From Loktanella salsilacus (GTDB taxonomy: Bacteria > Pseudomonadota > Alphaproteobacteria > Rhodobacterales > Rhodobacteraceae), in assembly GCF_900114485.1 (NCBI RefSeq), contig NZ_FOTF01000008.1:124001-188000 (forward strand): DNA of 64,000 bases, written 5' to 3'. Below the pieces are notes generated by a model. That model was not told the DNA's origin, ran no database searches, and worked only from the letters and a program-made list of their open reading frames with translations. A program made the translations under genes and the position numbers. This document shows positions 6,995-43,913 of this stretch, one piece after another (position 1 is the first letter of the stretch; the number at the start of each line of letters is the position of its first letter).

Positions 6995-7501
6995 ATGATT
7001 TTGAACCGACGTTTAATGATGGCCACGGCCATGGGCGCTTTGCTGACGGCTTGCGGAAAGCCTGCAGTCAGCAAGTTTCGCCGCTATGATGGGCCACCTG
7101 TGACGCGGGTGCAGGTGTTCAAAAAGCAGCGTCGATTACAGCTGCTCAGCGGTAATCGCATGCTGAAAGACTACAAAATGGAAATGGGATTTGCGCCCGA
7201 CGGGCACAAGCAAATCCAGAATGACGGCCGTACGCCCGAAGGCGCGTACCGCATTGATCGGCGCAACGCGAACAGCCGTTTTCACCTGTCGCTAGGCATT
7301 TCCTATCCGAATTCGGACGATATCGCGCGGGCCGAAGCTATGGGCAAACGCCCGGGCGGCGATATCTTTATCCACGGCACCCCGACCAATTATATTGGTC
7401 AGGACGACTGGACCTGGGGCTGTATCGCCGTCAGCAATGACGAGATCGAAGAGATCTACGCCATGGTCAAAGACGGCACGCCGATCTTTATCTATCCCTA
7501 A
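6995..7501 (+). CDS. L,D-transpeptidase (YkuD) family lipoprotein
   Basis: A 168-residue envelope protein. The N-terminus is a short signal sequence ending in a lipobox (LLTAC), so it is probably lipid-anchored. The C-terminal half is a YkuD domain with the catalytic HG...GC pattern: IHGTP around residue 127 and WGCIAVS around residue 147, where the Cys is the nucleophile. The family forms 3-3 peptidoglycan cross-links or attaches proteins to peptidoglycan; small single-domain members like this are poorly characterised. It is convergent with the CAP-domain gene, only 12 bases apart. A nested inverted repeat sits just upstream. Confidence 0.88.
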   Translation: MILNRRLMMATAMGALLTACGKPAVSKFRRYDGPPVTRVQVFKKQRRLQLLSGNRMLKDYKMEMGFAPDGHKQIQNDGRTPEGAYRIDRRNANSRFHLSLGISYPNSDDIARAEAMGKRPGGDIFIHGTPTNYIGQDDWTWGCIAVSNDEIEEIYAMVKDGTPIFIYP

Positions 7502-7513
7502 GGTGGCGAGACC

Positions 7514-8092
7514 CTATTGGGTCATCGGCGGCAGGGACGCAAAGGTATCGGCCGTAAAGGTCGGTGCCTGCACCACAGGGCCCGTGCCCATGGTCATCAC
7601 CCACCAGATTTTGCCAGCGGGTTCTTGAAACCACGACAGGCCCATCTTGCGTGCAGCCGGGTCCAGCACAACGCGGCGCGTATCTGCCTGCTTCATCCAA
7701 GCGGCAAGGGTTTCAAGCTCTGTCTCGTAGGACTCAGAGATATTCTCACCCAGCACGCGGCCTTGAAAGCCGACGCGTTGCGCGCGTTCCAGCGGTGACG
7801 ATCCGTCAGAGCCGAACAGCCAAGGCCGGTTCTGGATCGACATATCGCGCGCATGGGTCGCGTCAGCGGCATTCAGTTGTGGGTCCAGTTCGACCGCAGG
7901 CACGCCAGCGGCGGCGCGCAAGGTGTTGACGCTATCCAACATGCGGAACTGGATATCATCGGTGTCGTCCGGGCCAATGCGGTAGACTTGCGGCAAAGGC
8001 AGGCCATCAGGGCCGATCCGACCCTTGGGCGCGCCGCTACATGCAGCAAGGCCAAGGGCCATCACCCCAAAGATCATCTGACGTCGTAGCAT
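7514..8092 (-). CDS. CAP (SCP-like) domain lipoprotein
   Basis: A 192-residue exported protein. The signal sequence ends in a lipobox (GLAAC), after which about 35 residues lead into a CAP/SCP domain. Recognisable pieces are the helix with HARDM, the GENISES motif and the C-terminal strand WWVMTMGTG. Bacterial CAP proteins are secreted or periplasmic and mostly of unknown activity; some of the pathogenesis-related fold bind lipids or calcium. It runs towards the L,D-transpeptidase gene, another cell-envelope lipoprotein. The link between the two is positional only. Confidence 0.82.
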   Translation of the reverse strand: MLRRQMIFGVMALGLAACSGAPKGRIGPDGLPLPQVYRIGPDDTDDIQFRMLDSVNTLRAAAGVPAVELDPQLNAADATHARDMSIQNRPWLFGSDGSSPLERAQRVGFQGRVLGENISESYETELETLAAWMKQADTRRVVLDPAARKMGLSWFQEPAGKIWWVMTMGTGPVVQAPTFTADTFASLPPMTQ

Positions 8093-8204
8093 TTTGGCAC
8101 CCTTTTGCTGGCCGTTGCGCTCTCTTACCGAAGACAGGCAACCACTTCAAATGCCACATCAGTGAGGTCGCGCTTTCCCGCAGGGGCATAGATTACATGC
8201 CACA

Positions 8205-9383
8205 TCAGGCGCGCGCTGGTTTTGACCCTAGCGCGCCTGACAGAACAAAGCTGACGGCCACAAGCGGCAGGCCAAGGCCAAAGGTCCAGCGCAGACCCGC
8301 GTGTTCGGCGACAAAGCCAAGCAACGGCGGCCCTAGCAAGAAGATGACAAAGGAAAACTGCGCCAGCGCGGCGACATTCAGCGCGGCAGATCGATCGCTG
8401 CGCTGGGCAGCCGCCGACATCGCCAGCGGAAAGATTGCGGCAGTTCCGGCACCGATCAGCGCAAAGCCAAGCAGAGCGACCAGCGCAGACGGAGCGAAGA
8501 ACACGACAAGGACACCAAGCGCCATGGCAACCTGCATCGCCCGCGCGACCCGGTCCGGGGCGTGGCGGTCAACAATGCGGTCTGAAAAGTAGCGTGTGAT
8601 CGCCTGCGACAGCGCGGTCGTGGCGACGGCGAGGCCGCCCAGAAACGGCAGGGCGTCAAACACGGACCGCATATAGATGGCCGACCAGTCGATGCTGGCA
8701 CCTTCTAGCAGCATCGCCGACAGAGATACGCCGACCAGTACCATGATGCCTTTGGTCGGCCGTGCAATCGCCGGTCCGGCATCGGCTGTTTCGGTGCCGC
8801 GTTTTGGGGCTGGCTGAAAGTCGGCCAGAAGCACGCGTACCCCTAGGAAAATGATTGGCAACACAAGCGCCATGTGCAGCGTCGGCGGCACACCAAACTG
8901 GGCCATTGCGGCGCCGAACAGACCGGCGGCGAAGAAACCAAAGCTCCAAAAGGCGTGGGCGCGGTTCATGATGCGGCGGCCTAAGGCGGCTTCGACGCGG
9001 TCCGCTTCGACGTTCACGATCACCTCTGTCGCGCCCATCGTTAGCCCGGCGGGGATCAGCAAGAAATACAGCGCCAGCGGTCCGGTCGCATGGACTGCAA
9101 TGGCGAAGCACAGCGACATCAGCGGCAGAAGGATGAACAGCGCTTGCCGATGCCCAAGACGCGCAATGACTGGCGCAGCCAATGTCAGGGCGATCAGGGT
9201 GCCCGTCGATGTGCCGATCAGGGCCAACCCCAGGGCACCTTCTTCGATGCCCATCGCGCGTTTGATGTCCGGCAGGCGCGGGAAAAGGTTGCCCAATGCA
9301 AAACTATAGATCGCAAAGGCAGCAAAGACGCGCTGATGCGGGGCAAGGCGAGCGGAGATCGACATGAGGGGTGCTTTCGGCAT
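8205..9383 (-). CDS. MFS transporter
   Basis: A membrane protein of about 390 residues with roughly twelve hydrophobic segments and the layout of the major facilitator superfamily. An early loop carries the sequence SFALGNLFPRLPDIKRAMGI, reminiscent of the YbjJ/fucose-permease-like MFS branch. A second start at 9365 (MSISARL...) would drop six residues and is equally likely. The substrate is not readable. It is a single minus-strand gene, with 112 bases to the CAP gene downstream and 166 bases to hemH upstream. Confidence 0.82.
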   Translation of the reverse strand: MPKAPLMSISARLAPHQRVFAAFAIYSFALGNLFPRLPDIKRAMGIEEGALGLALIGTSTGTLIALTLAAPVIARLGHRQALFILLPLMSLCFAIAVHATGPLALYFLLIPAGLTMGATEVIVNVEADRVEAALGRRIMNRAHAFWSFGFFAAGLFGAAMAQFGVPPTLHMALVLPIIFLGVRVLLADFQPAPKRGTETADAGPAIARPTKGIMVLVGVSLSAMLLEGASIDWSAIYMRSVFDALPFLGGLAVATTALSQAITRYFSDRIVDRHAPDRVARAMQVAMALGVLVVFFAPSALVALLGFALIGAGTAAIFPLAMSAAAQRSDRSAALNVAALAQFSFVIFLLGPPLLGFVAEHAGLRWTFGLGLPLVAVSFVLSGALGSKPARA

Positions 9384-33738: not shown

Positions 33739-34560
33739 TTAGCGCGAGGCGTTCCAGCTGACCGATGCGTGGCGGCGGGTGTAGAATTCGCCAAGCAGTC
33801 CCAGCATCAGCAACACAAGCGCCACATACAGCGGATACGTCGGAGAGCTGAAGTGAGGGTTGTAGTTCAAGAAGATGTCGCCGCGAATCTGGTCGATGCA
33901 ATGAAACAAGGGATTCCAATCAAAAATCGACAGCATGGATGCAGGCAACGTATTTGCCAGAAACATCTTGCCGGATGCGATCATGTTGACGCGGCCATAG
34001 ACCGTACTGCCAATGCGGGTGAAATCCGGGGCCCAAGGTTTGATCGCCAAAAAGATCGTTCCAACCGCCACACCAGAGAACCAAGAGATCATCAGCATTT
34101 CCAGCGCGCCGATGGGATTGTCGATCACGACGGGTTTGTAGGTGACGTGATAGATGAACAACACCACAACGATTGATAGAAATTGCAAATACAGCGACGA
34201 AAGCGCCGCGGCGCAGATCGAAATTGCTGTCGTCATCGGGGCGTGATTCATCATCGCGGACGCGGGCCCTTCGGATCCGACGACCGCGCCCATTGCCTTT
34301 GTGTGGGCCATGTACAGAAAAATACCCGACATGATGTACATCAGGTAATCCCCGCGCACCGCAGAGCCGCGCATCCCCAGCAGTGCGAACATGCCGTAGA
34401 ACGATGCGATCATCAGAACAGACTGAAAAATGTTCATGATCAATCCGACCAGCGGATTGCGGTGGTTTTTGCGGACGTCACGTACGGCGCTGTGGTAAAT
34501 CAGTTCGGCCATCCCCAAAACAGAGCGCGTGCGTGATCTTGGGGCCTGCACCTGAAACAT
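33739..34560 (-). CDS. ABC-2 type permease, polysaccharide-export type
   Basis: A 273-residue inner-membrane protein with about six hydrophobic segments and the layout of Wzm/KpsM permeases, which move complete polysaccharide chains to the periplasm. The N-terminal cytosolic helix region (AELIYHSAVRDVRKNHRNPLVG) and the central NHAPMTTAISICAAAL segment fit this family. No matching ATP-binding subunit is found next to it or elsewhere in the window, so the partner must be encoded elsewhere. It is divergent from cysQ, the first gene of the glycan operon, which supports but does not prove a shared role. Confidence 0.78.
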   Translation of the reverse strand: MFQVQAPRSRTRSVLGMAELIYHSAVRDVRKNHRNPLVGLIMNIFQSVLMIASFYGMFALLGMRGSAVRGDYLMYIMSGIFLYMAHTKAMGAVVGSEGPASAMMNHAPMTTAISICAAALSSLYLQFLSIVVVLFIYHVTYKPVVIDNPIGALEMLMISWFSGVAVGTIFLAIKPWAPDFTRIGSTVYGRVNMIASGKMFLANTLPASMLSIFDWNPLFHCIDQIRGDIFLNYNPHFSSPTYPLYVALVLLMLGLLGEFYTRRHASVSWNASR

Positions 34561-34620
34561 CTGACGTTGCCTTTTTCATTCGATTCGCATCGGCGTCGCA
34601 TGTCTGATGCCATGAAATTC

Positions 34621-34649
34621 TTGCCGTTCGCTTTATGCCGCAGCATAAG
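34621..34649 (+). promoter_or_regulatory. candidate promoter of the cysQ-kdsB glycan operon, with inverted repeat
   Basis: TTGCCG, 17 bases, CATAAG. A perfect 6-bp inverted repeat (TTATGC, CGCA, GCATAA at 34633-34648) covers the -10, as an operator might. The ATG at 34714 is 65 bases further on. Found by eye. Confidence 0.4.
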
Positions 34650-34713
34650 AGCGAAAAGGGCGGTTTTTCAATCAATTCACTGTGTGCCCCGCAATTACGG
34701 AGAAAATGTGACC

Positions 34714-35514
34714 ATGGATTTCAACAAGCTGTCCGATGTGATGCGCCGTTTGTCGCTGGAAGCAGGCGATAAGATCATGGAAATCTATAACTCGCCCGAT
34801 TTCGAAGTGCGCACCAAAAGCGACGAAAGCCCCGTGACTGCCGCGGACGAGGCTGCTGATGCGATCATCAGCGCAGGCCTGCGCGCAGCCTTTCCCGATG
34901 TGGCGCTGATTACAGAAGAGCAGGCCGCGTCCCATAAGGTGCAGGCCAGCACGTTCCTGATCGTGGACCCGCTGGATGGCACCAAGGAATTCATCAAGCG
35001 CCGCGGCGATTTTACTGTAAACATCGCCTATGTCGTCGACGGTGTGCCCGTGCGCGGCGTGGTCTATGCCCCCGCCAAGGAACGCTTGTTTTACACAGAC
35101 GCCTCTGGCCAATCGGTCGAAGAAACGGGCCCCTTCGCCAAAGACACTGTTGGCGAAGTCGAGCCGATGTCCGTCACAACCAACCCCGACAACAATGCCC
35201 TGATGGTCGTCGCGTCCAAATCGCACCGCGACCAAGCGACGGATGACTACATCGATTTGTATCTGGTCAAGGACATGAAAAGCGCAGGCTCTTCGCTAAA
35301 GTTCTGCCTGATCGCCACCGGTGAGGCGGATATCTATCCGCGCCTTGGCCGCACGATGGAATGGGACACAGCCGCAGGCCATGCCGTTCTGACAGGCGCT
35401 GGCGGCGAAGTCGTGCGCTTTGATAACCACAAGCCGCTGATTTACGGCAAAGAGGGTTACGCAAACCCCTTCTTCATCGCCCACGCCCCCGGCGTTACAT
35501 TGCAGAAATCCTGA
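34714..35514 (+). CDS. cysQ: 3'(2'),5'-bisphosphate nucleotidase
   Basis: Removes a phosphate from PAP, the by-product of PAPS-using sulfotransferases and of sulfate assimilation. The inositol-monophosphatase-fold motifs are present: the metal-binding glutamate in LITEEQ, DPLDGTKEF, and the C-terminal MEWDTAAGHAVL. The product is 266 residues from the ATG at 34714; a GTG two codons earlier (34708) sits closer to GGAG (5 bases) and may be the real start. The ORF can be read back to 34567 but the extra residues are not conserved in type. It overlaps kdsB by one base. A sulfotransferase-like gene lies at the end of the same locus. Confidence 0.93.
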   Translation: MDFNKLSDVMRRLSLEAGDKIMEIYNSPDFEVRTKSDESPVTAADEAADAIISAGLRAAFPDVALITEEQAASHKVQASTFLIVDPLDGTKEFIKRRGDFTVNIAYVVDGVPVRGVVYAPAKERLFYTDASGQSVEETGPFAKDTVGEVEPMSVTTNPDNNALMVVASKSHRDQATDDYIDLYLVKDMKSAGSSLKFCLIATGEADIYPRLGRTMEWDTAAGHAVLTGAGGEVVRFDNHKPLIYGKEGYANPFFIAHAPGVTLQKS

Positions 35515-36314
35515 TGTCAGTCCTGATTGTTATCCCCGCCCGCTATGCCTCTACCCGGTATCCGGGCAAGCCGCTTGTCGACTTGCGCGGCGCTGACGGC
35601 GTCGCGAAGTCGTTGATCCGACGCAGCTGGGATGCGGCGATGCAGGTGGACGGCGTTGACCGCGTCGTTGTCGCCACAGACGACGACCGGATCAAGCAGG
35701 CCGCAGAGGCATTCGGCGCAGAGGTCGTCATGACCTCGGAGGCCTGCCGCAACGGGACAGAGCGCTGCGCCGCCGCTATCGACGCGATGGACGAAAGCTA
35801 TGACATTGTGGTTAACTTGCAGGGCGATGCACCGCTGACACCCGCGTGGTTTATCAGCGATCTCGTCGCAGGCATTCAGGCACGGCCTGACGTCGATGTC
35901 GCGACCCCGGTGCTGCGCACCGAAGGGCGCGCGCTGAACGGTTTTCTGGACGACCGCCGTGCGGGCCGGGTTGGCGGCACGACAGCCGTATTCGGCGCAA
36001 GCATGAACGCGCTATATTTCTCAAAAGAGGTCATCCCTTACACGGGTCAGACCTTTGCGGATGATGCGGATACGCCGGTTTTTCATCACGTTGGCGTCTA
36101 CGCTTACCGCCCGGATGCCCTGCGAGCCTATGGCACATGGCCCATCGGCCCATTGGAAACCCTCGAAGGGCTAGAGCAGCTTCGCTTCCTTGAACAGGCC
36201 CGGTCTGTCCTATGTGTTGAAGTCGATGCCAAAGGCCGCCAGTTCTGGGAACTAAACAATCCCGAAGATGTCCCTCGGATCGAGGCGATGTTGAAAGAGA
36301 TGGGGGCAGACTGA
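35514..36314 (+). CDS. kdsB: 3-deoxy-manno-octulosonate cytidylyltransferase (CMP-Kdo synthetase)
   Basis: Activates Kdo with CTP for lipopolysaccharide or capsule linker synthesis. The 266-residue product shows the N-terminal IPARYASTRYPGKPL nucleotide motif, VVATDD, and NLQGDAPL in place of the usual NIQGDEP, with the conserved Gly and Asp kept. The HVGVYAYR motif follows. CMP-sugar synthetases of related specificity are possible because the locus is glycan-related. Its start overlaps the cysQ stop (TGATG). The isomerase kpsF/kdsD for the Kdo pathway lies 12 kb away in this window. Confidence 0.86.
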   Translation: MSVLIVIPARYASTRYPGKPLVDLRGADGVAKSLIRRSWDAAMQVDGVDRVVVATDDDRIKQAAEAFGAEVVMTSEACRNGTERCAAAIDAMDESYDIVVNLQGDAPLTPAWFISDLVAGIQARPDVDVATPVLRTEGRALNGFLDDRRAGRVGGTTAVFGASMNALYFSKEVIPYTGQTFADDADTPVFHHVGVYAYRPDALRAYGTWPIGPLETLEGLEQLRFLEQARSVLCVEVDAKGRQFWELNNPEDVPRIEAMLKEMGAD

Positions 36315-36315
36315 C

Positions 36316-37566
36316 GTGCAGCAAAGCGTCAGTGTGATCGTTGTCAGCAACGGCCGCCCTGACGCGTTGCACCGTTGTTTGTTGGGCCTGTCCCAAATCG
36401 ATCACCCCAATTGCGAGGTAATTGTCGTCGCCGATAATAGCTCTTGGCCTGCCATCACGCAAAGCGGATTGGCGGGCCGTATCAAGGCTGCGCGGTGCGA
36501 CGTGCCGAATATCTCGATGGCGCGCAACGCGGGGCTGGCGCTGGCGGCGGGGGATATCGTCGCCTTTATCGACGACGACGCTGTGCCAGAGCCGACGTGG
36601 CTGTCGTATCTCACTGCACCCTTCGCCAATGAAAACGTCACGGCTGCGGGCGGCTTTGTGCGCGGGCGCAATGGAATCGATTTCCAATGGCGCGCCCGGT
36701 TGGCCTTTGGCGACGGTGAGACCACGCCGTTTGAAGTGGACGAGCTGCGCCCAACGCTGATGACCGCCGGGCCCGGGCGGGCGGTCAAGACCGAAGGCAC
36801 GAACATGGCCGTCCGCCGCGCCGCGCTGATTGCGATGGGCGGCTTTGACGAGGCATTTGCGTTTTACCTGGACGAGACAGACCTTAATTTACGGCTGGCC
36901 CAAGACAGCGCCACGACAGCGATAGTTCCGCTGGCGCAGGTCCATCACGGCTTTGCTGCCAGCGCCAGGCGCCGCGCGGATCGCGTGCCGCGCACGCTGT
37001 TTCAGATTGGGGCCAGCCTTGCGGTGTTTTTGCGCAAACATGGCGGGACGGCCCACCCCACAGCGCATGTACCCCGCGCGCACCAGCGGCGGCGGCTTTT
37101 GGCACATATGGTCGCTGGGCGGCTGATGCCCGGTGATGTCAGGCGGTTGCTGCAAACGTTCGATGCCGGCTGGGCCGAGGGGCTGAAGCGCACGCCTGCG
37201 CAGCATCCGGATTTTAGCAAACCGCCGCCGTTCGTGCCGTTTGGCGCGCAAAGCCGGACGCACAAAGTCATAAGCGCCCGGTCTTGGCATGCGGCAAAGG
37301 CGCTGATGGCGGCCAAGCAGGCGGTCGCGGGTGGGCAAATCGTGTCGCTGTATCTGATGTCACCAACGGGGCTATTTCACCGCCGCCAGTTTGATGAAAA
37401 CGGCGTGTGGATTCAGACAGGTGGGCAGTTTGGCAAGTCGGACCGATCTGATCCGTGGTGGGCGCCGTGGCGGGCACGCAGGCGCGTTGATGACGAAGCG
37501 CAGAAAATGCGCGCCCTGCGTGATCCTCACTCGGCGGATTACAACAGCCTTCACGCAAAACGATAA
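36316..37566 (+). CDS. Family 2 glycosyltransferase with long C-terminal extension
   Basis: A 416-residue enzyme. Residues 1-235 are a GT2-type (GT-A) domain: VIVVSNGRPDALHRCLLGLS, the MARNAGLALAAGD segment and the metal-binding IDDDAVPEP, then FYLDETDLNLRLA with the catalytic acidic pair. The last 180 residues are Arg- and His-rich, lack an obvious membrane helix, and I do not recognise them. The start is the GTG at 36316, two bases after the kdsB stop. The acceptor and donor sugars are unknown. Confidence 0.85.
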   Translation: MQQSVSVIVVSNGRPDALHRCLLGLSQIDHPNCEVIVVADNSSWPAITQSGLAGRIKAARCDVPNISMARNAGLALAAGDIVAFIDDDAVPEPTWLSYLTAPFANENVTAAGGFVRGRNGIDFQWRARLAFGDGETTPFEVDELRPTLMTAGPGRAVKTEGTNMAVRRAALIAMGGFDEAFAFYLDETDLNLRLAQDSATTAIVPLAQVHHGFAASARRRADRVPRTLFQIGASLAVFLRKHGGTAHPTAHVPRAHQRRRLLAHMVAGRLMPGDVRRLLQTFDAGWAEGLKRTPAQHPDFSKPPPFVPFGAQSRTHKVISARSWHAAKALMAAKQAVAGGQIVSLYLMSPTGLFHRRQFDENGVWIQTGGQFGKSDRSDPWWAPWRARRRVDDEAQKMRALRDPHSADYNSLHAKR

Positions 37567-37645: not shown

Positions 37646-38539
37646 ATGCGTAGCAAAGTCACCAAAGCCGTATTTCCGGTAGCTGGTTTGGGAACTCGGT
37701 TCCTGCCAGCGACGAAAGCCGTTCCAAAGGAAATTATGACCTTGGTGGATCGCCCTTTGATCCAGTACGCCATTGATGAAGCCCGTGCTGCTGGCATCAC
37801 CGAATTCATTTTTGTCACTGCACGGGGCAAGAACGCGCTCGAGGATTATTTCGACCACGCACCAGATCTGGAACACACCCTGCGCAAAGCTGGCAAGACC
37901 GAGCTGTTGGAAATCTTGAAGTCCACCAACATGGACAGCGGCGCGATTGCTTACATCCGCCAGCACAAGGCGATGGGCCTCGGCCACGCGGTCTGGTGCG
38001 CGCGCCGTCTGATCGGTAACGAGCCCTTTGCCGTTATGTTGCCCGACGACGTGATCGCGGGCGAGAAGTCTTGCTTGCAGCAGATGGTCGAAGCCTACGA
38101 GGAAACTGGTGGATCCATGGTCGCGGCCATGGAAGTCGAACCGGATCGGACGTCGTCATATGGCGTGCTTGATGTGGAATCGGTGAACGGTCCCATCGTC
38201 AAAGCAAAAGGCATGGTTGAAAAACCGGCCGCAGGCACTGCACCGTCGAACCTTGCTGTTATTGGCCGTTATATTCTGACGCCCAAGGTGCTTCAGAACC
38301 TGAACAAAATCGACCGTGGCGCTGGTGGTGAGTTGCAATTGACCGATGCGATTGCGATGGAAATCACCCAAGATCGCGATGTGTTTGGCTATAAATTCGA
38401 AGGTCAGCGCTACGATTGTGGTTCTAAGGCTGGCTATTTGCAGGCGACCGTTGCCTTTGCATTGGACCGTCCAGAGCTAAGCGACGAGTTTGTCGATTAT
38501 CTGCAAGACATTTTGGCGCGGCGCGCAGCCGCCAAATAG
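37646..38539 (+). CDS. galU: UTP-glucose-1-phosphate uridylyltransferase
   Basis: Makes UDP-glucose, the donor for many surface polysaccharides. The 297-residue protein opens with KAVFPVAGLGTRFLPATKA and PKEIMTLVDRPLIQY, and has the LPDDVIAG and GELQLTDAI motifs and FEGQRYDCGSKAGYLQA near the end, all diagnostic for GalU/GtaB. It is placed between glycosyltransferase genes, 79 bases after one and 5 bases before the next, so it probably belongs to the glycan operon. Confidence 0.95.
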   Translation: MRSKVTKAVFPVAGLGTRFLPATKAVPKEIMTLVDRPLIQYAIDEARAAGITEFIFVTARGKNALEDYFDHAPDLEHTLRKAGKTELLEILKSTNMDSGAIAYIRQHKAMGLGHAVWCARRLIGNEPFAVMLPDDVIAGEKSCLQQMVEAYEETGGSMVAAMEVEPDRTSSYGVLDVESVNGPIVKAKGMVEKPAAGTAPSNLAVIGRYILTPKVLQNLNKIDRGAGGELQLTDAIAMEITQDRDVFGYKFEGQRYDCGSKAGYLQATVAFALDRPELSDEFVDYLQDILARRAAAK

Positions 38540-38544
38540 GATCA

Positions 38545-39732
38545 GTGACAGCGGCGCGACTTCTTGATGTGACCAGACTCGCCTCTCGGGCGGGTTTGGT
38601 GGCGACGGGGGTCGACCGTGTCGAACTGGCTTATCTGCAGGCGTTCACAGGCGACACAGACGTGCCAGTCTTCGGCCTATGCCGCACGGCGCTTGGGTTT
38701 GTGCTGCTGGACCGGGCGGGACTGCTTGCGCTGGGCGCGGCATTCACGGCCCGCGATTTTCCCAAACCTGATCTGCTGTCGCGGCTCAATCGGCGGCTGA
38801 CAGATGCGGCCCGGCACGGTCAAAGCTTTGCGCGTCGCCATGCGATTGCGCGGGCGCGGCGCGCACGGCTGAAGCGGTTGTTAAAACACCTTCCCGCGGA
38901 CTTCGCCTATTTCAACGTTGGCCACAGCAACCTGACCCGCCCTGTCTGCCGGGCGATCAAATCGCGGCGCGGCGCGCAGATTGCGATCCTGATCCACGAC
39001 ACGATCCCGCTGGACTGGCCGGACATGCAACGCCCCGGCACTGTGGCGGAGTTCGCGTCAAAGCTAAAGGTTGCGGGAAAATTCGCGGACCGTATCATCT
39101 GCACCTCGGCCGCCTGCGCTTCTGATGTGCGCCGCCATCTGGTTGCGCTGGGACCCGTGCCGCCTATCGTTACCGCGCACCTTGGCGTCGATGTGCCGAG
39201 CTCCGCGCCAGAGGATATCCCCCTCGGCGTCATGCCAATGCGCCCCTATTTTGTAATCCTCGGCACAATCGAGCCACGCAAGAACCATGCTTTGCTACTG
39301 GATCTTTGGGACGACTGGGGGCCGGGCGCGCCGGATCTGCTGATTTGTGGTCATCGTGGCTGGCTGAACAAGGACGTTTTTGACCGCCTCGATGCTGGTG
39401 TGCCCCACGTCAAAGAGGCACCAAACCTGTCCGACGGTGCTATTGCAGCCCTCCTTCAGGGCGCGCAAGGTCTGCTCTTTCCATCCCGCGCCGAAGGCTT
39501 TGGCCTGCCCCCGATCGAGGCGGCGGCGCTGGGCGTTCCGGTCTTATGTGCTGATTTGCCACCTTGCCGCGAACTGCTTGGTGACTGGGCCGTTTACGTG
39601 GATGCCCAAGACCGCTATTCATGGAAAAAAGAGATTTCGAGGTTCCTGCAGATAGCGCCGCAGGATCGCGCGGGCAGGCTTGTTCCCCCCACGTGGTCCG
39701 CGCATTTTAGGAAGGTATTAGGCGAAGCCTGA
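38545..39732 (+). CDS. Family 1/4-type (GT-B) glycosyltransferase
   Basis: A 395-residue GT-B enzyme. The C-terminal nucleotide-sugar domain is clear: YFVILGTIEPRKNHALLLDLW, then PNLSDGAIAALLQGAQGLLFPSRAEGFGLPPIEAAALGVPVL, with the E-x7-E type motif of retaining GT4 transferases. The N-terminal half (GVDRVELAYLQAF, then ILIHDTIPLDWPDM) is typical of GT4 enzymes of polysaccharide loci. The start is a GTG, five bases after galU. Its stop is followed by 41 bases before the next gene. Donor and product are unknown. Confidence 0.85.
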   Translation: MTAARLLDVTRLASRAGLVATGVDRVELAYLQAFTGDTDVPVFGLCRTALGFVLLDRAGLLALGAAFTARDFPKPDLLSRLNRRLTDAARHGQSFARRHAIARARRARLKRLLKHLPADFAYFNVGHSNLTRPVCRAIKSRRGAQIAILIHDTIPLDWPDMQRPGTVAEFASKLKVAGKFADRIICTSAACASDVRRHLVALGPVPPIVTAHLGVDVPSSAPEDIPLGVMPMRPYFVILGTIEPRKNHALLLDLWDDWGPGAPDLLICGHRGWLNKDVFDRLDAGVPHVKEAPNLSDGAIAALLQGAQGLLFPSRAEGFGLPPIEAAALGVPVLCADLPPCRELLGDWAVYVDAQDRYSWKKEISRFLQIAPQDRAGRLVPPTWSAHFRKVLGEA

Positions 39733-39773: not shown

Positions 39774-40784
39774 GTGGGCATTTTGCGGTCCTACCGGCTA
39801 AGGGTGCAGCGGCAACGCTGGCTCGTGCGCGCCTTTCGCAAGCGCCGCGAATTGAAAGCTGTCGCAAACCGGACTGGGCAGATCAAGCCTGACGACATCA
39901 TCGTCTTTTCGACCTTTCGCAACGAAGACCTGCGGTTGCCGCATTTTATCCAGTATTATCGGGGGCTTGGGGTCAACCATTTCATTATGGTCGACAACGA
40001 TAGCACCGATGGCGGTGCCGAATTCTTAAAAGATCAGCCTGACGTGACACTGTTTCATGCGCATGGCAGCTATAAGCGGGCGCGCTTTGGTGTTGATTGG
40101 CTAAACTGGTTACAGCGAAAATATGCGGATGGTCATTGGACGCTGGTTGTCGATCCAGACGAACTGCTGGTCTATCCGTTCTGCGACACGCGGCCTCTGC
40201 GGGCATTGACTGACTGGCTTGATGCGTCCTCGATTAAATCATTTGGCGCGATGCTGCTGGATATGTATCCCAAGGGACGCATTAACGATGTGCCCTATCG
40301 CCGGGGTGCCGACCCGCTTCAGGTCGTCGAATGGTTCGATAGTGGCAATTATAACATCAAGCGTAATCCTAAATTTGGCAATTTGTGGATCCAAGGCGGC
40401 CCGCGCGCGCGCACCTTTTTTCCAGCAGAGCCAACCCGCGCACCTGCGTTGAACAAGATCCCATTGGTCAAATGGGACAAGAAATACGCCTATGTCAGCA
40501 GCACGCACATGCTGCTGCCGCGCGGCCTGAACCTTGTCTATGATGAATGGGGCGGGGAAAAAGCCAGTGGCGTGTTGCTGCACACCAAATTCCTGCCCAA
40601 CTTTACCGAAAAGGCAAAGGAAGAGATGGAGCGTGGTCAGCACTATGCCAACAGCCACGAATATCGCGCCTATGCCGCGTCTGGCGACGCAAACCCGGAC
40701 CTGTGGTGCAAATGGAGCGAGCGCTATATCAACTGGCGCCAGTTAGAGATTTTGGGGATTATGTCCAAGGGGAACTGGGCATGA
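39774..40784 (+). CDS. Glycosyltransferase family 2-like (GT-A, Glyco_tranf_2_4 type)
   Basis: A 336-residue protein. DDIIVFSTFRNEDLRLPHFIQYY, HFIMVDNDSTDGG and the acidic LVVDPDELLVYP triplet resemble the GT2-like/GT92-like group often annotated as putative glycosyltransferases in marine alphaproteobacteria. The C-terminal part (about residues 150-336) carries further conserved-looking Trp, His and Lys residues. The start is the GTG at 39774. The last four bases overlap the start of the next gene (ATGA), coupling the two. No membrane segment is evident. Confidence 0.8.
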   Translation: MGILRSYRLRVQRQRWLVRAFRKRRELKAVANRTGQIKPDDIIVFSTFRNEDLRLPHFIQYYRGLGVNHFIMVDNDSTDGGAEFLKDQPDVTLFHAHGSYKRARFGVDWLNWLQRKYADGHWTLVVDPDELLVYPFCDTRPLRALTDWLDASSIKSFGAMLLDMYPKGRINDVPYRRGADPLQVVEWFDSGNYNIKRNPKFGNLWIQGGPRARTFFPAEPTRAPALNKIPLVKWDKKYAYVSSTHMLLPRGLNLVYDEWGGEKASGVLLHTKFLPNFTEKAKEEMERGQHYANSHEYRAYAASGDANPDLWCKWSERYINWRQLEILGIMSKGNWA

Positions 40785-42478
40785 CCGTTGGCGTCGTCAT
40801 GCTGGTGCACACCGCCTTTGACCGGGCCGAACAGATCGCCCGGCACTGGGTCGAGGGTGGCTGCCCTGTTGTGATCCACGTCGATAAAACTGTGCCGGAC
40901 GACAAGTTTGAAACCTTTAAAACGGCGCTTGGCGATTTGGAAAAGGTTAAATTCAGCCGTCGCCATCGCTGCGAATGGGGCACTTGGGGGATCGTCGCCG
41001 GCACGCAGTCCGCGTCAGAACTTATGCTGCGGTCCTTTCCGAATGTGCGCCATGTCTTTCTGGCATCGGGGTCCTGCATGCCGCTGCGCCCGGTGCGCGA
41101 ATTGCGCAGGTATCTGGACAGCCGTCCGCGTACTGATTTTATCGAAAGCGCGACGACCTCTGACGTGCCTTGGACGGTGGGCGGGCTTGACCGCGAACGC
41201 TTTACCCTGCGTTTTCCGTTTTCATGGCGCAAGAACCGCTATTTGTTCGACCGCTACGTCGCCTTGCAACGCCGTTTCCGGTTTCGGCGCAAGATCCCCG
41301 AAGGCATCGTGCCACATATGGGATCGCAGTGGTGGTGCCTGACCCGGCAGACCCTATCGGCGATCCTGCAGGACCCCGATCGGCCGCTTTATGATAAGTA
41401 TTTCGCCAAGGTCTGGATCCCGGACGAAAGCTATTTTCAGACCCTTGCGCGCCTGTATGCGGTTAATATCGAAAGCCGGTCTTTGACGCTTTCAAAGTTT
41501 GATTTTCAGGGCAAGCCGCACATCTTTTACGACGACCACCTACAGCTACTGCGGCGGTCTGACTGCTTTGTTGCGCGCAAAATCTGGCCGCGCGCTGATT
41601 TGCTATACCAGGCCTTTTTGGTCGAAGACGCCGCTACCATGAAAGGGGCAGAGCCAAGCCCGGGCAAGATTGACCGCATCTTTTCAAAGGCTGTTGATCG
41701 CCGCACAAAAGGGCGTCCGGGGCTTTATATGCAAAGCCGTTGGCCGAATCAGGATTGGGAAAACGGCATCACGTCGTCGCCCTATTCTGTGTTTAGCGGC
41801 TTTGGTGAGCTGTTTGAAAACTTTGAACCTTGGCTGGCTCGGATCACGGGGTCGCGGGTGCACGGGCACCTTTATGCGCGCGATCGCGTGCAGTTTGATG
41901 GTCGGCAAAAGTTTTTTAACGGTGCATTGTCCGATGCACCCGCCTTGCGGGATCACAATCCGCAGATGTTCCTGACCAATCTGATTTGGAACACACGGGG
42001 CGAACGGCAGGCGTTTCAGTTTGGCCCGTCCGATTCGCAAAAGATTAGCTGGACGCTGGCCAAAGATCCGAACGCACAAATCAGCGTTATTTCAGGCAGT
42101 TGGGCTGTACCATTGTTTCAGTCTAACCGCGATTTTGCCGATCTGCGGCACGAGGCTGCGTTGCTACAGCGCGTCGAAAACGAACATCTAGCCGCCTTGC
42201 GCTCGACCTGGGCCAAGGCCCGCATTCGCATCTGGACGATGGCCGATTTCATCGAGTCCCCGATGGAGGCGATTCAGCTTGTGATCGACGAAATGACGGG
42301 GGAAAAGACGCGCCGCATTGCCGAAGCGCCGCGGATGCATGACCTGACCGGTTTTGGCCAGTTTCTGCAAAACCTGAAAAATCAGGGGATGCACCCGTAT
42401 TTGATGGGCGATTTCCCAGTCGCTTCCGCCCCGCTTAATCAAGCGCCCACGGCGCGCAAACCTTATTTGGTCAAATAA
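40781..42478 (+). CDS. Core-2/I-branching-type N-acetylglucosaminyltransferase with unknown C-terminal half
   Basis: A 565-residue protein from the ATG at 40781; the reading frame stays open back to 40547 but that part overlaps the previous gene. Residues 1-275 resemble GT14 core-2/I-branching beta-1,6-N-acetylglucosaminyltransferases: MLVHTAFDRAEQIARHW, VIHVDKTV, NVRHVFLASGSCMPLRP, SQWWCLTRQTL, and WIPDESYFQTLA. The remaining 290 residues form a separate region with no motif I can name; I recall such a domain annotated DUF5928 in roseobacters. GT14 enzymes add branches, so the glycan may be branched. The next gene starts one base after its stop codon. Confidence 0.8.
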   Translation: MTVGVVMLVHTAFDRAEQIARHWVEGGCPVVIHVDKTVPDDKFETFKTALGDLEKVKFSRRHRCEWGTWGIVAGTQSASELMLRSFPNVRHVFLASGSCMPLRPVRELRRYLDSRPRTDFIESATTSDVPWTVGGLDRERFTLRFPFSWRKNRYLFDRYVALQRRFRFRRKIPEGIVPHMGSQWWCLTRQTLSAILQDPDRPLYDKYFAKVWIPDESYFQTLARLYAVNIESRSLTLSKFDFQGKPHIFYDDHLQLLRRSDCFVARKIWPRADLLYQAFLVEDAATMKGAEPSPGKIDRIFSKAVDRRTKGRPGLYMQSRWPNQDWENGITSSPYSVFSGFGELFENFEPWLARITGSRVHGHLYARDRVQFDGRQKFFNGALSDAPALRDHNPQMFLTNLIWNTRGERQAFQFGPSDSQKISWTLAKDPNAQISVISGSWAVPLFQSNRDFADLRHEAALLQRVENEHLAALRSTWAKARIRIWTMADFIESPMEAIQLVIDEMTGEKTRRIAEAPRMHDLTGFGQFLQNLKNQGMHPYLMGDFPVASAPLNQAPTARKPYLVK

Positions 42479-42479
42479 C

Positions 42480-43913
42480 GTGTCAAAATTCGATTACTTC
42501 GTAGTCTTTGCTGAAATGCGCACGGGCTCTAACTTTTTAGAAGCCAACCTGAACATGTTTGACGGCGTCGCCTGTTTGGGTGAAGCATTTAACCCGCATT
42601 TTATCGGTTTTCCAAATACCCCCGACCTTCTTGGGATGACCCAAGCTGACAGAGAGTCCGACCCGCAGGCGCTGATTGATCGGGTGAAACAGGCCGAGGG
42701 GCTTAACGGTTTCCGATTTTTCAATGATCACGATTCCCGCGTTTTAGATATTGCGCTGACTGACCCGCGCTGCGCTAAGATTGTACTGACGCGCAATCCT
42801 GTCGACAGCTTTGTCAGTTGGAAAATCGCCAGCGCGACGGGGCAGTGGAAGCTGACGAATGTCACCCACGCCAAAACGCAGCAGGTTAATTTCGACGGGA
42901 TAGAGTTTGAAACCCATCTTGCCGCGCTGCAAGCGTTTCAAACGCGCATCTTGAATACCCTGCAGCGCAGCGGGCAGACGGCGTTCTACGTCGCTTACGA
43001 GGATTTGCAGGACGTTGAGGTCATGAATGGCCTGGTGCGCTGGCTTGGCGTCGACAGCCACATCACATCCTTGAACAAAACGCTGAAAAAGCAAAATCCC
43101 GATCCGATGGCGGATAAGGTTGCGAACTTTGCCCAGATGGAAACCGCGCTTGCACGCATGGACCGGTTTAATCTGACACGGACGCCAAATTTCGAACCCC
43201 GCCGTGGGCCGATGATTCCGACGTATATCGCCGCGCCGCACAGCCCGCTGCTTTATATGCCGCTAAAATCCGGGCCGAATGCCGTCGTACAAGACTGGCT
43301 GGCTGCGGTGGACGAAGCGACAGTGCAGGATTTGAAAACCGGCTTTAGCCAGAAAAGCCTGCGGGACTGGCTGCGGGCCCATCCCGGTCATCGCAAATTC
43401 TCTGTCGTACGCCATCCGGTCATTTGGGCGCATACTGCGTTTTGCGAACGGATCGTGGCAAACGGGCCGGGTAGCTTTGCCGAAATTCGGGCGACCCTGC
43501 GCAAAGTCCACGGGGTAGACGTGCCAGATGGCGGCGCGGTGCCAGAAACGGACGTGGTCTATAACATGCAGGCCCATCGCAAGGCGTTTCTGGCATTCCT
43601 AAAATTCCTCCGCAACAACCTGTCAGCTCAAACGGCAGTCCGAACCGATGCGGCGTGGGCGTCGCAGCAGTCACTGTTGCAGGGCATGGCCGACTTCGGC
43701 GTCGCGGACCTTATCGCCCGCGAGGATAGTTTGCGGGCCGACATGGCGCGGCTGGCTGGGCAGATTGGCCGCACCAGCATGCCAGACCTGCCAGAGCAGA
43801 CCGACCCCTATGCCGCGCGGTTGGCTGCGATCTATGATGATGTGGTGGAAGCAGCAGCGCGCGATGCCTATGGCCGCGATTACGAGGCGTTCGGCTTCGG
43901 CGCTTTACGTTAG
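42480..43913 (+). CDS. Didomain sulfotransferase-like protein
   Basis: A 477-residue protein that appears to hold two sulfotransferase folds. Residues 1-240: FVVFAEMRTGSNFLEANL (5'-phosphosulfate loop type) and KIVLTRNPVDSFVSWK (3'-phosphate type), as in Stf0/NodH-like enzymes. Residues 250-477: LLYMPLKSGPNAVVQDWL, KFSVVRHPVIWAHTAF, then REDSLRADMARLAGQIG and YGRDYEAFGFG, the signature order of carbohydrate sulfotransferases (Sulfotransfer_2). The GTG start lies one base after the previous gene's stop. Such proteins transfer sulfate from PAPS to sugars; cysQ upstream could remove the PAP. The substrate and whether both halves are active are unknown. Confidence 0.75.
   Translation: MSKFDYFVVFAEMRTGSNFLEANLNMFDGVACLGEAFNPHFIGFPNTPDLLGMTQADRESDPQALIDRVKQAEGLNGFRFFNDHDSRVLDIALTDPRCAKIVLTRNPVDSFVSWKIASATGQWKLTNVTHAKTQQVNFDGIEFETHLAALQAFQTRILNTLQRSGQTAFYVAYEDLQDVEVMNGLVRWLGVDSHITSLNKTLKKQNPDPMADKVANFAQMETALARMDRFNLTRTPNFEPRRGPMIPTYIAAPHSPLLYMPLKSGPNAVVQDWLAAVDEATVQDLKTGFSQKSLRDWLRAHPGHRKFSVVRHPVIWAHTAFCERIVANGPGSFAEIRATLRKVHGVDVPDGGAVPETDVVYNMQAHRKAFLAFLKFLRNNLSAQTAVRTDAAWASQQSLLQGMADFGVADLIAREDSLRADMARLAGQIGRTSMPDLPEQTDPYAARLAAIYDDVVEAAARDAYGRDYEAFGFGALR

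Follow-up and report, generated by a model that had tools for sequence, protein, structure and literature searches.

A family-wide fusion of a NodH/Stf0-like sulfotransferase with a degenerate sulfotransferase-related domain at a glycan locus of Loktanella salsilacus

The fused gene and its locus

The window analyzed here, a stretch of 64,000 nucleotides from Loktanella salsilacus (contig NZ_FOTF01000008.1), contains a forward-strand series of glycan genes that ends with a fused sulfotransferase gene (Table 1). This gene starts with GTG, consists of 477 codons with no internal stops (477 aa), and is separated by only 1 bp from the stop of the Branch-DUF5927 glycosyltransferase gene upstream. 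Because the listed ORF of that neighbor overlaps the gene before it, its true start probably lies downstream of the listed ATG. At the other end, cysQ is the first same-strand gene of the locus, as the sequence-only reading had proposed. The reverse-strand permease gene stands alone between dnaK and cysQ, and no gene for an ATPase (the KpsT partner) was seen beside it within the window. A KpsF/KdsD-type isomerase is also recognized at the locus by NCBIfam.

Most of 40 diverse loci share one gene order: permease (reverse), cysQ, kdsB, [GT2], galU, [GT4], Glyco_tranf_2_4, Branch-DUF5927, and the fused sulfotransferase. The parts that vary are kdsB, GT2, and GT4. Beyond the fused gene, the opposite strand carries ptsN-hpf-lptB-lptA-lptC(-kdsD), again in most of the 40. 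This conserved synteny upholds the earlier proposal that the gene is tied to a surface-glycan locus.

Table 1. Genes of the locus and features of the fused protein, in window coordinates
Feature	Position	Strand	Basis
ABC-2 permease, closest to VexB/KpsM capsule exporters	33739..34560	-	below equivalog cut-offs (NCBIfam)
cysQ, PAP phosphatase	34567..35514	+	TIGR01331, 252 bits (cut-off 229)
kdsB, CMP-Kdo synthetase	35514..36314	+	NCBIfam
GT2-type glycosyltransferase, variable neighbor	36316..37566	+	Pfam, synteny
galU	37646..38539	+	TIGR01099 above cut-off; synteny
GT4-type glycosyltransferase, variable neighbor	38545..39732	+	Pfam, synteny
Glycosyltransferase Glyco_tranf_2_4, conserved neighbor	39774..40784	+	Pfam, synteny
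Core-2/I-branching-type glycosyltransferase with DUF5927 (Branch-DUF5927), near-obligate neighbor	40547..42478	+	Pfam, synteny, co-occurrence
Fused sulfotransferase gene	42480..43913	+	ORF list and translation; full-length orthologues family-wide
N domain, residues 1-233, NodH/Stf0-like sulfotransferase	42480..43178	+	9vki profile match, invariant motifs, AF2
N-domain PAPS loop MRTGSN, residues 13-18, RxG-type as in NodH	42516..42533	+	R[ST]GSN in 142/142
N-domain 3'-phosphate motif R105NPVD109SFVS113 (RxxxDxxxS)	42792..42818	+	motif conservation
Interdomain linker, residues 234-242	43179..43205	+	low confidence, pLDDT below 50
C domain, residues 244-474, degenerate, Sulfotransfer_2-related	43209..43901	+	Pfam on C halves, hhalign, AF2, low dN/dS
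C-domain degenerate PAPS loop YMPLKSGPNA, residues 259-268	43254..43283	+	motif counts
C-domain degenerate 3'-phosphate motif R311HPVIWAHT319	43410..43436	+	motif counts

Distribution, partner genes, and the acceptor

A sample of 199 Rhodobacteraceae genomes, nearly one per genus, was searched with the window protein. The protein has matches in 164, almost always along its whole length; G075, G172, and G179 contribute weak paralogue matches only, leaving 161 genomes with a true orthologue. Some of the 161 are fragments at contig ends, and the motif counts given below were taken on 142 distinct orthologues. Among 385 genomes of the class, full-length matches are confined to the Rhodobacteraceae; in three others, the match covers just the N half or a fragment. 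The protein has named relatives in Loktanella atrilutea (86%) and L. fryxellensis (82%) as well as in Yoonia, Octadecabacter, Roseovarius, Salipiger, Sulfitobacter, and Thalassovita. Thus, the search for the fused gene in relatives that the sequence-only reading had suggested finds it across most of the family: it is near-core in the Rhodobacteraceae, and since full-length orthologues span this family and only this family, the fusion is old and family-wide. Neither this near-universality nor the tight linkage to Branch-DUF5927 formed part of the sequence-only reading. A plasmid origin was considered and rejected, as a full-length copy is absent from 72,556 plasmids.

A few genomes have lost the gene. 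At two loci (L104 in G172 and L105 in G179) it is precisely missing from an otherwise present locus, and the DUF5927 gene abuts ptsN. At a third (L087:578-2379 in G149), an ORF that looks like an istB gene of IS21 type, apparently an insertion, occupies the site of the N half, and the C part alone remains; DUF5927 was not detected in this genome. Given these missing and interrupted copies, the gene is dispensable in at least some strains.

In the 199-genome sample, 159 genomes have the orthologue together with DUF5927 and 34 have neither (Fisher 2e-31, shared ancestry ignored). PF05159 (KpsC/KpsS) is present in all 161 orthologue-bearing genomes and lacking in 19 of the 38 others (2e-16, shared ancestry again ignored). 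In the L. salsilacus genome itself, a KpsC/KpsS-type (PF05159) gene adjoins a Poly_export/SLBB gene amid riboflavin and nusB genes (L140:5414-7429 and 7438-8721); the pair lies on contig C43, which differs from the contig of the locus. APS kinase, which L. salsilacus possesses, was discarded as a diagnostic partner; 185 of the 199 genomes have one, and the association is weak.

As judged from this gene content, the acceptor is somewhat more likely to be a capsule-type polysaccharide than LPS or some other glycan of the envelope. The link to capsule is circumstantial, because the KpsC/KpsS genes sit on another contig. The two-domain mechanism is also compatible with an acceptor of the kind used by NodH/LpsS-type enzymes, such as the LPS core, lipid A, or a different glycolipid of the envelope. 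This alternative, which we regard as rather unlikely, draws on the immediate neighborhood of kdsB, kdsD/kpsF, and lptABC and on the annotation of the nearest solved relative, 9vki, as an LPS sulfotransferase. However, the lpt genes are general housekeeping genes on the opposite strand, a KpsM/VexB-like permease lies at the opposite end of the locus, and the genomes with an orthologue all fall within those bearing PF05159.

An N domain with intact motifs and a C domain that has mostly lost them

In searches with the single protein, Pfam detects Sulfotransfer_2 with 22.8 bits (cut-off 22) at residues 301-473, as well as Sulfotransfer_1 at residues 11-204 (17.9 bits for the whole protein and 20.5 bits for the N half by itself, cut-off 22). 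These matches lie near the cut-off, yet they are real rather than chance ones, since among 65 orthologues 40 match Sulfotransfer_2 (best 8.3e-10), 40 match Sulfotransfer_3 (best 1.7e-8), and 27 match Sulfotransfer_1. An AlphaFold model of the full-length protein, built from the family alignment (mean pLDDT 91, pTM 0.54), contains two confident alpha/beta domains whose relative placement is uncertain. Sulfotransferases (3rnl, 3-OST-3, and Stf0) lead the fold search with this model, in which human NDST1 is also present. An internal duplication was considered as well; the two halves align by hhalign over 50 mid-domain columns only, a match too short to serve as evidence.

The N half resembles NodH. 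A family profile matches its sequence to that of 9vki, a solved "LPS sulfotransferase NodH" (E 1.4e-14); the profile is needed for a firm match, as the single protein finds 9vki as its sole PDB match by phmmer with E 0.1. Stf0 (1tex) was not retrieved from the PDB by either sequence search. Within the L. salsilacus genome, PF09037 (Stf0-type Sulphotransf) gave no match, an uninformative result given that the control was also silent. The residues R[ST]GSN, E35, R105, and S113 are present in all 142 distinct orthologues and an Asp or Glu at position 109 in 140. E35 aligns with a Glu of 9vki and is presumably the catalytic base (Glu or His type), a role that we take over from Stf0. The N half thus has a PAPS loop with Lys/Arg and Gly, of the RxG type described for NodH, together with RxxxDxxxS, the 3'-phosphate motif described for PF00685 (PMC11625862). 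Since the first beta-strand of the model begins at residue 6, there is no room for a signal peptide. On these grounds, the N domain is very probably a cytoplasmic, PAPS-dependent sulfotransferase.

The C half is related to Sulfotransfer_2. When isolated, the C halves of 40 of the 65 orthologues match this family (best 1.3e-9). The same genome encodes a canonical, single-domain Sulfotransfer_2 paralogue (L141:4617-5432, contig C56), with which the C half aligns by hhalign (probability 94, E 9e-8); the homology starts at the 3'-phosphate motif and runs onward. Modeled alone, the C half is a confident alpha/beta domain (pLDDT 93, pTM 0.91). Pfam, the 9vki profile match, hhalign, and AlphaFold therefore agree with the sequence-only reading that one protein contains two sulfotransferase-related halves, and the motif positions it gave are correct. 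The structure prediction it had called for yielded two confident domains, but the fold search is less firm when run on the C half by itself: sulfotransferases are the top matches but weak ones (best E 0.077, prob 0.38, TM about 0.27).

An active enzyme of this kind has a PAPS loop with Lys followed by Gly and Ser/Thr, plus PxxRxxS. Both donor motifs are intact in 30/30 copies of the canonical paralogue, which served as a control, and both are degenerate in the C half, where PxxRxx[ST] is found in 6/142 orthologues. Within this motif, P313 is invariant (142/142) and Arg316 is usual (134/142), while position 319 is Ser in only 3/142. In the loop, Lys/Arg263 and Gly265 are each retained in about 80% (113/142 and 114/142), and at position 267, where Ser/Thr is the norm, 100/142 have Asp/Glu. 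In the window protein, position 267 is Asn, Trp316 replaces the usual Arg, and position 319 is Thr; one orthologue from the same genus, at L078, has KSGPT in the loop and Thr319. The earlier remark that the loop PLKSGPNAV lacks some usual residues is correct, and it describes a property of the whole family.

Despite this loss, the C half has a low dN/dS (0.03-0.29 across 25 close pairs), comparable to that of the N half. Because the motifs are intact in the N half and lost in the C half, and because C-half dN/dS is low, one half probably catalyzes while the other is retained, probably without catalysis. The motif counts make it likely that the C domain has lost catalysis, and it is probably kept under selection as a non-catalytic domain. 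The most divergent member (L094, 391 aa) is consistent with catalysis in the N half, since its C half is shortened and its N motifs are retained. Since K/RxG persists in 99/142 orthologues, residual nucleotide binding by the C half is possible.

The sequence-only reading had offered two alternatives: sulfation of a glycan at two positions by one polypeptide, or conversion of one half into an inactive binding module. Two active halves acting on the same glycan now seem improbable. In favor of this proposal, the C half is truly related to Sulfotransfer_2, the His-Pro pair and Arg316 are conserved in most members, and K/RxG is frequent; however, in nearly every orthologue both of its donor loops lack their hydroxyl residues (Ser/Thr in 12/142 in the 3'-phosphate helix and in 9/142 in the PAPS loop), which leaves the two-position proposal unsupported, and deep-branch members have lost Arg311 too. 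The second alternative fares better, in that inactivity of the C half is probable from the loss of donor motifs; a binding role for it is conjectural. That the C half is a functionless, decaying remnant is more improbable still: its conservation is lower than that of the N half (44% vs 55% mean pairwise identity, 5 vs 25 invariant columns) and it is shortened in L094, but its dN/dS is low, it is nearly full length in most orthologues, and W273, W297, H312, P313, and D467 are invariant in 65 diverse sequences.

Proposed role and closest known systems

The reading that we moderately favor combines an active N domain, a retained, non-catalytic C domain, and an acceptor that is the envelope glycan of the locus, most likely of capsule type. 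The protein would be a Rhodobacteraceae-specific, cytoplasmic, PAPS-dependent carbohydrate sulfotransferase whose N domain does the chemistry. PAPS would be held by the RTGSN loop together with K100, R105, and S113, with E35 as the likely general base. Sulfate would be transferred to a sugar hydroxyl of the glycan made by the neighboring glycosyltransferases, above all the Branch-DUF5927 enzyme, and the PAP product would be removed by CysQ. The C domain, descended from a Sulfotransfer_2 enzyme and probably no longer using PAPS, may hold or measure the acceptor glycan, dock on the glycosyltransferase, or dimerize. Export of the glycan would most likely follow a KpsM/VexB-like ABC route.

A second module of this type is present in the same genomes. 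The canonical Sulfotransfer_2 gene lies divergent from a gene for a Branch-DUF5928 glycosyltransferase (L141:5392-7161), and the two adjoin in 30/30 loci examined. DUF5928 is found in 163 of the 199 Rhodobacteraceae genomes, largely those with the fused sulfotransferase. Thus, two parallel pairs of a branching glycosyltransferase and a sulfotransferase co-occur family-wide. The pairing supports a glycan substrate shared by glycosyltransferase and sulfotransferase; the identity of that glycan lies beyond its reach. A wider and more tentative suggestion is that most Rhodobacteraceae, marine roseobacters included, might make a sulfated capsule-type polysaccharide by way of the DUF5927 and DUF5928 modules, with the pseudo-sulfotransferase domain guiding the active NodH-like one to its acceptor. 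A search of the open-access literature found no paper on DUF5927, DUF5928, or capsule sulfotransferases of Rhodobacteraceae; one Nautella paper mentions a sulfotransferase, in passages that do not take up the fused gene.

Sulfated polysaccharides have been reported from few bacteria, in six genera (PMC11625862). A sulfotransferase locus conserved in about 80% of the sampled Rhodobacteraceae genera would mean that a dominant marine family sulfates its surface sugars by default, which would matter for the adsorption of phages, for association with algae, and for the sulfur cycle. The degenerate C domain of the fusion would be a naturally occurring pseudo-sulfotransferase, and the orphan families DUF5927 and DUF5928 gain a testable setting.

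Among known systems, the NodH/LPS sulfotransferases (Sulfotransfer_3-type; 9vki) share the RxG-type PAPS loop, the profile match of the N half, and a likely carbohydrate acceptor. They are single-domain proteins, whereas the fused protein adds a second, degenerate sulfotransferase domain and is encoded in a conserved polysaccharide locus. Stf0, the mycobacterial trehalose sulfotransferase (1tex), resembles the fused protein in the fold match of the full-length model and in its PAPS loop, where Arg replaces Lys (PMC11625862), but is single-domain and has another genomic setting. The canonical Sulfotransfer_2 paralogue is homologous to the C half and is likewise partnered by a Branch glycosyltransferase; it differs in its single domain and its intact PKCACST and RNPxxRxxS motifs. 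Finally, human NDST1 (N-deacetylase/N-sulfotransferase) is also a two-domain enzyme of glycan sulfation, but its second domain is a deacetylase rather than the degenerate sulfotransferase of the fused protein.
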